A model generated the notes under the pieces. That model saw nothing but the letters and a program-made list of their open reading frames with translations, did not search any database and was not told the origin of the DNA. Source: Desulfurobacterium thermolithotrophum DSM 11699 (GTDB taxonomy: Bacteria; Aquificota; Aquificia; Desulfurobacteriales; Desulfurobacteriaceae). Taken from it: a stretch of DNA of 64,000 bases. Below are positions 48,853 through 52,460 of the stretch, one piece after another (position 1 is the first letter of the stretch; every line of letters begins with the position of its first letter). Where the stretch lies: NCBI RefSeq assembly GCF_000191045.1, contig NC_015185.1, forward strand, positions 1 through 64,000, given 5' to 3'. The position numbers and the translations under genes are program-made.

Positions 48853-49347
48853 TTAAGTTTTATAAACTATTGTTGAAATGGCGTGCTTATAAACTAGGAT
48901 GTTTCCTCTATAGTTTCTCATTTTTAGGGTAAATCTATCAAATCCTTTTAATCTACCCTCTAGTCTGCTTCCATTCCTGAAGAAAACTATAATCCTTTTT
49001 CCCATAGCTTGACGCAATTCTCTACTTTGAACACCTCCCATATAGGAAGAAGCTATTAGTCTATAACCTTCAGATAGCTTTTTTTCAATTTCTTCCTTTT
49101 GTTCTTCTGTAGGTGTAGGAGGAAGAAGAGGTATAAACGTTGCTGGTCTTATGATTAATTCATCTTCGATTTCTTCGTAGACAATATCCCCTGCAGATTT
49201 CATAAGTTGCAGGAGAGGTTTTATATTTTCTGGTTTAACAGAAAGCCTTTCAGCTAATTCTTCAATTGAGCCTCTGAATTCTCCTTCTTCTTCAAGAAGC
49301 TCTATTAATTCTATTTGTGCGTCTTCGAGAGTTTTGTACCTTTTCAT
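48853..49347 (-). CDS. Hfq-domain protein with N-terminal winged-helix-like region (copy 1)
   Basis: A 164-residue protein. Residues about 5-68 look like a winged helix (FRGSIEELAERLSVKPENIKPLLQLM), then a charged linker, then an Hfq/Sm domain at about 100-164. The Sm2 signature YKHAISTIV is at 153-161, and the Sm1 part is IIVFFRNGSRLEGRLKGFDRFTLKM. In E. coli Hfq the start carries Gln8-Asp9; here VQSRELRQAMGK keeps Gln but replaces Asp with Ser. Hfq rings bind sRNA and mRNA. Hfq proteins are normally 70-100 residues with no added domain at the N-terminus. The gene begins nine bases after the stop of copy 2. Confidence 0.8.
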   Translation of the reverse strand: MKRYKTLEDAQIELIELLEEEGEFRGSIEELAERLSVKPENIKPLLQLMKSAGDIVYEEIEDELIIRPATFIPLLPPTPTEEQKEEIEKKLSEGYRLIASSYMGGVQSRELRQAMGKRIIVFFRNGSRLEGRLKGFDRFTLKMRNYRGNILVYKHAISTIVYKT

Positions 49348-49356
49348 AACAGCTAC

Positions 49357-49893
49357 CTATTCAAAAATTATTGTAGCAATTGCGTGTTTGTAAACAAGAG
49401 ATTTTCCCTTTGGAGCTGTCATAGATAATGTAAAGTTATCAAAGTCTAAAAGTTTTCCTTCGAGTCTTGTTCCGCTTATAAGGAATACAGTTATATCCTT
49501 ACCTATTAGAGAAGTTAATACTCTATCTTGAAGAGAGAGTTTTTTCTCTTTTTTCTTTTTTTCTGGCTCTTCTTTTGTTTTTTCTTCTTCTACTTTTTCT
49601 ATGATTTGAGTTTCCTTTTCTTCTTTTGCTTCAACTTCTTCTTTTTGCTCTTCATGAGTATCTTCCACTTTTTCTTCTTGTGAAAGTAAGGTTATTATTA
49701 ATCCTTTTCCTCTTCTTGATTCAGATTTTACTAAAGATTCTTCCTCTAACTCTGTAAGAGCTTTTTTGACAAGATAGGGAGTTGAGTTTGCAAGATGAGC
49801 AAGTTCTTCTAACGTTCCAGAATACTCTCCAAATTCTGAAAGATATTCTCTCAACCAAATTTTTACTTTTTCGGCTTTCGATTGAGAAGCCAT
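49357..49893 (-). CDS. Hfq-domain protein with N-terminal winged-helix-like region (copy 2)
   Basis: A 178-residue protein, upstream of copy 1 in the same operon. Residues about 5-70 look like a winged helix (YSGTLEELAHLANSTPYLVKKA), 72-118 are a highly charged Glu/Lys linker, and 119-178 are Hfq. LSLQDRVLTSLIGK retains the Gln-Asp pair of the RNA-binding face, followed by FLISGTRLEGKLLDFDNFTL and YKHAIATII. This copy is the better candidate for normal Hfq RNA binding. The ATG at 49893 sits after GGAGG and is preferred over one at 49926. The helix-turn-helix-like part may bind DNA or protein; that is inference. Confidence 0.8.
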   Translation of the reverse strand: MASQSKAEKVKIWLREYLSEFGEYSGTLEELAHLANSTPYLVKKALTELEEESLVKSESRRGKGLIITLLSQEEKVEDTHEEQKEEVEAKEEKETQIIEKVEEEKTKEEPEKKKKEKKLSLQDRVLTSLIGKDITVFLISGTRLEGKLLDFDNFTLSMTAPKGKSLVYKHAIATIIFE

Positions 49894-50004: not shown

Positions 50005-51354
50005 TTATCTTTTAAGCTTAGGTAGAATTTTATTTTCAAGAATTTTTGTGTCAAGAGCTCCCTTTATAAAGTTTTCATCTTTTAAAAGTTTCAAGTGAAA
50101 TGGAATTGTCGTTTTAAGATTCCCTTCAATTACAAATTCTGAAAGAGCTCTTTCTCCTCGTTTTATTGCTTCCTCTCTTGTTTCTCCCCAAACAATTAAT
50201 TTTGCTAAAAGAGAATCGTAGTACTGCGGCACTTTGTAACCTTCATATATGTGAGTATCAACTCTTACACCAAATCCACCAGGAATTAAAAGCTTTTCAA
50301 TTTTTCCAGGAGTAGGACGAAAGTCTTTTTCATAATCTTCACAAGTTATTCTGAATTCTATTGCATGTCCCTTTAGTTTAACGTCAGAAATATTTAGTTT
50401 TTCTCCAGCAGCAGCCATAATTTGTTTTGCTATTAAGTCTTTTTCGGTTACAAATTCTGTAACAGGATGTTCAACCTGAATACGAGTATTCATTTCAATA
50501 AAGTAAAAGTTTTTATCCTTATCAACTAAAAATTCTACTGTTCCAGCTCCTTCGTAATTAATAAATTCAGCAATTTTTTTAGCAGCATCCGAGAGTTTAT
50601 TTCTTAGATCTTCATCTACAAAAGGAGATGGTGCTTCCTCAAGAACTTTTTGATGTCTTCTTTGAAGAGAACATTCTCTTTCTCCGAAAGTTACAACGTT
50701 TCCAAATTGGTCTGCAACTACCTGGATTTCTATATGGCGAGGATTTTTTATGTACTTTTCTATGTAAACTTCTCCGCTTCCAAAAGCAGCTTCAGCTTCA
50801 GCCATTGCTGTAACTATTAAAGTTTTTGCTTCTTTGGAAGAAGTAATAAGTCTCATTCCTCTACCACCACCACCATGGGCAGCTTTAACTAGAACTGGAT
50901 AACCAATTTCCTCACAGACTTTTAAAGCTTCTTGAACGTTCTTTATAATTCCACTACCTGGAACAACAGGAACACCGGCCTTTATTGCAACTTCTCTTGC
51001 TTTTGCCTTGTCTCCCATTAAAACCATAGTTTCTGGCGAAGGGCCTATGAATTTCATGCCACAGGCTGTACAAATTTCTGCAAAACCAGGATTTTCGGAA
51101 AGGAATCCATAGCCAGGATGGATGGCATCTGCACCTGTTATCTCTGCTGCAGAGATGATAGAAGGAATGTTTAGATAACTTTCCTGGGGACGGGGACCTC
51201 CTATACAAACTGCTTCATCTGCAAGAAAAACATGAAGGGAATCTCTGTCCGCAGTAGAATAAATAGCTACTGTTTTTATTCCAAGCTCTCTACAGGTACG
51301 AATTATTCTTACAGCAATTTCTCCTCTATTTGCTATGAGAACTTTTTTGAACAT
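50005..51354 (-). CDS. accC: Biotin carboxylase (acetyl-CoA carboxylase subunit)
   Basis: AccC charges the biotin of AccB with CO2 using ATP and bicarbonate. The 449 residues begin [21 protein letters not shown], shown as [17 protein letters not shown], with [11 protein letters not shown] near 125, the Gly-rich [14 protein letters not shown] near 155-170, and [16 protein letters not shown] near 285, the active-site segment. The ATG at 51354 sits after AAGGTGG. The gene comes directly after accB. Pyruvate or oxoglutarate carboxylase A subunits look alike, but the accB-accC pair favours acetyl-CoA carboxylase. AccA and AccD are not in the window. Confidence 0.92.
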
Positions 51355-51364
51355 ACAGCCCACC

Positions 51365-51799
51365 TTATGCTTTTTCTATGTAAAAAAGAGGCTGGCCATA
51401 CTCAACAGGCTGGCCGTTTTCTACTAAGATTTTTTTAACTACTCCTGAAACTTCTGCTTCTATTTCATTCATTACCTTAAGAGCTTCGATAATGCAGAGA
51501 GTTTGTCCCTTTTCAACAAAATCTCCCTCTTTTACAAAAGGCTCCGCTCCGGGAGCAGGAGCTCTATAAAAAGTTCCTACCATTGGGGACTCTACAACGT
51601 AGTAGTCTTCAGTATTTTTTGTAATTTCTTCTTTTTCTTCTTTCTTTATCTCCTTAGGAACTACTTCCTGTAATGGAATTTCTTTAACTACACCTCGAGC
51701 AAACTTAGCTCGTAATTTTATTCCTTCAACTTCAATTTCTACTTCTTCAATAGAAGTATTTTCCAAAGCTTTTAAAAGTTCTCTTACCTTATCAAGCAA
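51365..51799 (-). CDS. accB: Biotin carboxyl carrier protein
   Basis: A 144-residue biotin carrier. The C-terminal biotinyl domain starts with [19 protein letters not shown] near residue 71, and the biotinylated Lys is Lys108 in [12 protein letters not shown], where the usual EAMKM reads EALKV. The N-terminal part is a charged linker. The start is TTG, after AGGAGGG. It sits between efp upstream and accC downstream. Confidence 0.92.
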
Positions 51800-51808
51800 A
51801 ATACCCTC

Positions 51809-52381
51809 CTACTTAATATTAACCCTTTCTATGTATTCACCAGTTTCTGGATTTACCTTTACATAATCACCAGGATTAATAAACATTGGCACTTGAATAA
51901 CAGCACCTGTTTCAAGTGTTGCAGGTTTTGTAACGTTTGAAACAGTATCCCCTTTAAATCCAGGTTCTGTATCGGTAACTTGTAAAACTATGCTCTTTGG
52001 TAGTTTAACAGAAATCGCTTCTCCTTTATAAAATTGAACCATTACAGTAGTATTTTCTTTGAGAAATTTTGCTTTCTCACCTAAAGCAGTTTCTGAAACG
52101 CCAACTTGCTCGTAGGTTTTTGTGTCCATGAAGTAGTAAGATTCTCCATCATTGTAAATGTATTCCATTTCTCTTTCTTCAAAGTCTGCCAACTCAAGCT
52201 TTTCGCCGACTTTATAAGTCTTCTCAACAACGTTTCCGGTTTTCAAGTTTTTAAGCTTTATCCTTGCAAATGCCTGTCCCTTTCCAGGTTTTACGTGCTG
52301 ATAATCTACTATTTCGTATGGGTAACCTTCAATTTCAAGTTTCATTCCCTTTGCTATTTGATTTACATCGATAGAAGCCAA
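51809..52381 (-). CDS. efp: Translation elongation factor P
   Basis: EF-P relieves stalling at polyproline. The 190-residue protein has three beta domains; the tip loop KPGKGQAFARIKLKNL near residue 32 carries the Lys that is modified in some bacteria, and YIERVNIK ends the protein. The frame opens at a TTG at 52387, but that codon touches the GGAGG site. The second TTG at 52381 is six bases after GGAGG and gives MASIDVNQIAKGMKLE, the normal start. It is first in the efp-accB-accC unit and is divergent from the lipoprotein gene. efp-accB neighbours are common. Confidence 0.94.
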   Translation of the reverse strand: MASIDVNQIAKGMKLEIEGYPYEIVDYQHVKPGKGQAFARIKLKNLKTGNVVEKTYKVGEKLELADFEEREMEYIYNDGESYYFMDTKTYEQVGVSETALGEKAKFLKENTTVMVQFYKGEAISVKLPKSIVLQVTDTEPGFKGDTVSNVTKPATLETGAVIQVPMFINPGDYVKVNPETGEYIERVNIK

Positions 52382-52460
52382 CTTCAACCTCCAAAATGAA
52401 GTTTTGAAAATTATAACAGTTTATTTTAATACTGTGCTAAAATTTCAAGCGGAGGGTGAC

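Follow-up and report, generated by a model that had tools for sequence, protein, structure and literature searches.

More than one Hfq per genome, as found here, is also known from the Hfq1-3 paralogues of Bacillus anthracis and from double-Hfq proteins of the NF010691 type; to our knowledge, none of these proteins carries a winged helix. In its usual form, Hfq is a ring with nothing attached but a flexible tail. In E. coli and Caulobacter, Hfq is autoregulated by acidic tails, which mimic nucleic acid (PMC5606850, PMC6561178). PafB and PafC are paired homologous proteins with a wHTH-Sm (WYL) architecture. The transcription factor becomes active when ssDNA occupies the WYL Sm domains, whose contributions are unequal (PMC6789036, PMC11804915).

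Layout of the gene pair

Herein, a pair of adjacent genes from the thermophilic vent bacterium Desulfurobacterium thermolithotrophum DSM 11699 is analyzed. All coordinates refer to the window, which is the whole stretch of 64,000 nucleotides examined (NC_015185.1, positions 1 to 64,000). The pair and its upstream neighbors are as follows.

51809..52387, minus strand: efp (elongation factor P), part of efp-accB-accC, ahead of the pair
51365..51799, minus strand: accB (biotin carboxyl carrier protein), part of efp-accB-accC, ahead of the pair
50005..51354, minus strand: accC (biotin carboxylase), same-strand upstream neighbor of the pair in 20/20 relatives
50027..50054, minus strand: candidate internal promoter (TTGACA-16-TAAAAT) lying within the 3' end of accC and upstream of A; a weak candidate, by consensus match only
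49357..49893, minus strand: gene A (wHTH-Hfq 1), 178 aa, with an ATG start and a GGAGG ribosome-binding site
48853..49347, minus strand: gene B (wHTH-Hfq 2), 164 aa, 9 bases behind A

Both genes were checked and are real, with the boundaries first assigned to them. The gene order on the minus strand is efp, accB, accC, A, B. Within Desulfurobacteriaceae the pair is syntenic and the gap between A and B ranges from -4 to +15 nt, as in coupled genes. This family-wide synteny indicates that the arrangement is not due to chance. A match similar to the candidate promoter was seen by eye in some relatives and is missing in others, and no shared palindrome or operator was seen by eye in the 160 bases upstream of A. 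Downstream of B, the neighboring genes vary among 20 relatives. In this window, a DDE-transposase element (window:47626-48603), apparently split into two open frames, lies between B and the chemotaxis genes; the close relatives L034 and L038 are without it. The protein encoded upstream of cheA (window:47003-47566) has no Pfam match, and its C-terminal QNEVDEIMKQFGL resembles the CheZ tail by eye.

Like PafB/PafC, A and B are two adjacent homologous genes, each encoding an N-terminal winged helix followed by an Sm fold, with Sm domains that appear to have unequal roles. Unlike PafB/PafC, the Sm domain is of the Hfq type and not the WYL type (A and B gave no Pfam match to WYL at E values up to 5), the WCX domain is missing, and no proteasome or DNA-repair genes are located near the pair.

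Hfq domains and predicted winged helices

The structures of A and B were predicted by AlphaFold2 using family alignments. The domains identified are listed below.

49687..49878, minus strand: A winged-helix domain, residues 6-69 (H-S-H-H-S-S), AlphaFold2 pLDDT about 90
49702..49716, minus strand: A basic wing RRGKG, residues 60-64, motif [KR][KR]G[KR]G
49549..49677, minus strand: A charged disordered linker, residues 73-115, AlphaFold2 pLDDT 32-43
49363..49542, minus strand: A Hfq/Sm domain, residues 118-177, with an intact uridine pocket and without the rim arginines
49144..49329, minus strand: B winged-helix domain, residues 7-68, by AlphaFold2; acidic, no basic wing
48859..49035, minus strand: B Hfq/Sm domain, residues 105-163, with D9S, E18K, E37K, Q41R and V27R

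The original prediction, made from the letters of the DNA, was of a winged-helix-like N-terminal domain and a C-terminal Hfq domain in both genes, joined in one copy by a long charged linker. This architecture was borne out by the AlphaFold2 folds, by Pfam and by PDB Hfq matches, and the linker was located in A. A structure prediction without a winged helix had been named beforehand as a refuting outcome; the prediction returned a winged helix of the order H-S-H-H-S-S in both proteins. In the model of A, the Sm domain occupies residues 121-177 with a pLDDT of 92-95. The model of B consists of the winged helix, a helix at 81-92, an extra strand at 95-100, and an Sm domain at 108-163. The linker of A is acid-rich in its first part and ends in a lysine cluster, with 4-7 Lys in the 10 residues preceding SLQD in 21/21 A proteins.

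The winged helix of A or B has no match at the curated Pfam cut-off, and the matches to GntR, Crp_2, Rrf2 and HTH_11 are all sub-threshold. Foldseek searches with the two models returned Hfq structures for each, and winged-helix structures were absent from the best 50 matches listed for either; the winged-helix assignment thus rests on the predicted topology together with the weak HTH profile matches. Naming a family for the winged helix from PDB profiles was given up, as the matches were weak and mixed.

Membership of the C-terminal domain in Hfq is clear. The Pfam Hfq model (PF17209), whose cut-off is 27 bits, scores 52.3 bits for A (E 4e-14) and 50.8 bits for B (E 1e-13), and matches to PDB Hfq chains reach an E value of 2e-8 for each protein. 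Borrelia FlgV, once called Hfq, is a cautionary case but unrelated, the Hfq domain of A and B being itself above threshold. Compared with standard Hfq (PF17209/TIGR02383; Aquifex aeolicus Hfq 5szd, E. coli Hfq), the pair shares the Sm fold and the Sm2 YKHA motif, and the uridine pocket is full in A and mostly present in B. However, unlike standard Hfq, A and B have an N-terminal winged helix and no C-terminal tail, and their NCBIfam scores of 56.1 and 48.2 bits lie below 61.7, the cut-off of the equivalog for the RNA chaperone Hfq. A match to the NF010691 double-Hfq model was also seen in the NCBIfam comparison.

The residues were then compared using E. coli Hfq numbering. Q8, D9, D40, F42, Y55, K56 and H57 are retained in 21/21 A proteins, making the proximal uridine pocket complete; B retains Q8, F/Y42, Y/F55, K56 and H57. 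Position 9 of B is Ser in 20/20 orthologues (VQS in place of LQD). The missing Asp of the Gln-Asp pair, described earlier for one copy, thus concerns the gene starting at 48853 (B), and the gene starting at 49357 (A) still has the Asp. Both proteins share a deletion of two residues between the first helix and the first strand. The rim arginine patch (RRER), which serves annealing, is lost, reading L/I-G-K-gap in A and L/I/M/V-G/N-K-gap in B, whereas the ordinary Hfq of Desulfurobacteriaceae reads R-K-E-R/K. Distal Gln33 (now Q33E) and Gln52 are missing from both. A and B therefore fail two marks of a working chaperone Hfq, the equivalog score and the rim patch. As they are not WYL proteins either, the pair is classed as a variant built on Hfq and not as standard Hfq.

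These residues bear on the possibility that the pair is a specialized RNA chaperone, with A and B forming mixed or separate Hfq rings and the winged helices serving as RNA-, ribosome- or RNA-polymerase-binding accessories instead of sequence-specific DNA binders. The pocket of A and the retained residues of the very basic B agree with this role, and the profile of A touches the ribosomal S19e/S25 winged helices at a level that is not significant. The missing rim arginines, Gln33 and Gln52 argue against it; here the lysine cluster ahead of the Sm helix of A may stand in place of the rim arginines. A chaperone of this kind is possible and, on balance, doubtful.

The two proteins also differ in charge. 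The Sm net charge is +10 to +12 in B and about 0 in A, compared with +3 in ordinary Hfq. In the E. coli Hfq core, the acids exposed to solvent are D9, E18, E37 and D40 (PMC5606850), and three of these four have therefore been replaced in B. The winged helix of B is acidic (net -6 to -9). The winged helix of A is near neutral overall with a recognition helix that is not strongly basic, and the basic wing is present in 23/23 A-type proteins, sister family included, and in 0/14 B-type proteins. The strongly basic surface of B would suit a nucleoid-associated or DNA-compacting protein, in which a multivalent winged-helix ring bridges DNA via the known DNA-binding side of Hfq. E. coli Hfq binds dsDNA, with PDB 5uk7 among the fold matches, and takes part in silencing (PMC10954037). 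Such a protein would have no need for the conserved uridine pocket of A, and this role is regarded as quite improbable.

Distribution and origin of the pair

A was found in 21/22 and B in 20/22 genomes of Desulfurobacteriaceae (Aquificota). The one family genome in which neither gene was found has a completeness of 62%, and in the one that has A but not B the contig breaks off beside A. Near matches come from Desulfurobacterium, Thermovibrio and Desulfurobacteriaceae, and in a pattern-limited scan of 84,980 species genomes the full-length protein appeared only in Desulfurobacteriaceae. No intact A-type match was among the matches listed for 112 other Aquificota genomes. Strong matches in 149 genomes of one Acidobacteria phylum and 399 genomes of one Proteobacteria phylum were to the Hfq part only, and the collections searched held no full-length match outside Desulfurobacteriales. 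Three Hfq domains lie within long open frames of other phyla, G136:C46:10998-11177 (385 aa), G140:C98:23173-23343 (290 aa) and G143:C17:5285-5455 (412 aa), which could be other Hfq fusions or merely long open frames. A phage origin was rejected, as no relative was found in the viral contigs searched; the PHROG matches reflect HTH and linker composition.

The open-access literature, to which the survey was confined, contained nothing on a winged-helix Hfq or on Desulfurobacterium Hfq, and the words 'paralog' and 'fused' are absent from the Aquifex Hfq structure paper. As far as could be found, the winged-helix-Hfq pair is apparently undescribed before.

A second divergent Hfq beside the ordinary one is likewise present in other Aquificota families, with a second match in 37/37 genomes checked with the Hfq model. 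The 13 that were fetched are frames of 62-111 aa with an ordinary-length Hfq domain and no winged helix. This short Hfq2, of about 62-71 aa counted from the likely start, differs from A and B in lacking the winged helix, in its locus, and in falling on a separate side of the tree. In L054-L066 (e.g. L054:2859-3068), its Sm domain is about neutral to acidic with K/Q/R at position 41.

The homology of A and B extends across the winged helix and the Sm domain alike (hhalign 99.5%, E 7e-23), which indicates that an already fused gene was duplicated. The two-residue deletion and Q33E are further features that they have in common. In the tree, A and B form a group apart from ordinary Hfq and short Hfq2 (support 100/98); based on only 62 columns with long branches, it serves as a guide only. 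One fusion followed by a tandem duplication would be the simplest history of A and B. The two copies have diverged in complementary ways.

Another Desulfurobacteriales family has the adjacent A-B pair in both of its 2 genomes (95% and 64% complete), between rpe and an RNA ligase gene. The A-type protein is a clear homologue of A (hhalign 99%, E 3e-18), and homology of the B-type protein to B is less sure (90%, E 2e-6). No ordinary hfq was found in either genome, and none behind miaA. The YKH motif is gone from the Sm parts, reading IDKNK in the A-type and YKD or YKN in the B-type, and the uridine pocket is lost. The ligase gene directly after the pair (L157:4296-5447, L053:84-1235) is of the T4 Rnl1 type (PF09511). 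This ligase was not found in the genome of the window and lies elsewhere in many Desulfurobacteriaceae genomes; a functional tie to the pair was dropped, the neighborhood being an accident as far as seen.

Conservation of the two halves was compared at both levels. Within Desulfurobacteriaceae, the Hfq part is better conserved than the winged helix (89% versus 71% identity in A, 77% versus 69% in B). This indicates that RNA binding is under strong constraint there, and it would favor a chaperone. Between the two families, the winged helix of A is 48% identical and its Sm part 19%, with the YKH motif lost; the values for B are 31% and 19%. The function of the winged helix therefore looks primary, and the retention of the A winged helix without the YKH motif speaks against a chaperone. 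The changes in the Sm part of the sister-family proteins could also be read as the drift of residual paralogues with no important function. A and B nevertheless sit side by side in 20/22 family genomes and in both genomes of the sister family; dozens of their residues are invariant, and their frames contain no internal stops. Conservation already disfavors this reading, which we consider most improbable.

Possible function of the pair

An ordinary Hfq of 77 aa (100 bits) is encoded elsewhere in the same genome, directly behind miaA. Therefore, the pair does not stand in for ordinary Hfq, and a replacement was ruled out. A normal third Hfq had been set beforehand as a finding that would speak against the original prediction, and a usual Hfq role for A and B is abandoned. 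It also weighs against the chaperone explanation, as an Hfq is already at hand. Of the new RNA-chaperone type that was proposed, the winged helix and the fusion stand, and the chaperone itself is one of several explanations still in play. The rim arginines and Gln33 are lost in both copies, and the pocket is gone in the sister family. These losses, together with the retained A winged helix, speak for a nucleic-acid-binding regulator ahead of a chaperone that anneals RNA.

Our preferred explanation, held tentatively and with somewhat less than even confidence, is that A and B together form a heteromeric regulator that evolved from Hfq and depends on nucleic acid, each gene supplying one of the two subunits. 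The Sm domains would assemble as a mixed ring or as paired rings, in which the basic surface for RNA binding comes from B and the intact uridine pocket from A. The acidic winged helix of B may shield or compete for the basic Sm surface, like the acidic tail of E. coli Hfq. The winged helix of A, with its basic wing and flexible linker, would contact DNA or structured RNA. Once RNA or ssDNA is bound at the Sm part, the winged helices would be switched or localized, and the outcome would be RNA-responsive or RNA-tethered transcription control.

The regulator explanation draws on the folds of A and B, their shared fused ancestor, and the between-family conservation of the winged helix. It further draws on the basic wing found in A and not in B, on the charge split, on the coupled genes, and on the retention of the pair in both sister genomes without a detectable ordinary hfq. 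The paired wHTH-Sm layout is known in PafB/PafC and occurs here with a true Hfq, by which the regulator is favored over the chaperone and over the DNA-compacting protein. Counted against the regulator are the missing winged-helix match at a curated cut-off, the winged helix of A as near neutral overall with a recognition helix that is not strongly basic, the Sm part as the more conserved half within Desulfurobacteriaceae, the neighbors efp, accB and accC, which point to no regulon, and the lack of a visible operator.

Mixed A/B rings are plausible, judging from obligate adjacency, coupled translation and complementary charge. A more specific proposal, which we consider unlikely, is that true-Hfq rings mixed from A and B, bearing as many as six winged helices, let the small RNA or mRNA that they bind influence which promoter is chosen. 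If true, this would be a direct physical link of sRNA control to transcription initiation.

If RNA and DNA binding are coupled, RNA-responsive transcription by an Sm ring would become directly testable. A natural experiment is offered by the sister family, which retains the A winged helix with a decayed RNA pocket and in which an ordinary Hfq was not found. Kept stably across the order, the duplicated fusion of Hfq with a winged helix shows that evolution can draw Hfq into a regulator-like protein of two subunits, along the architectural path also taken by the WYL regulators, with a winged helix plus an Sm fold encoded in paired genes.
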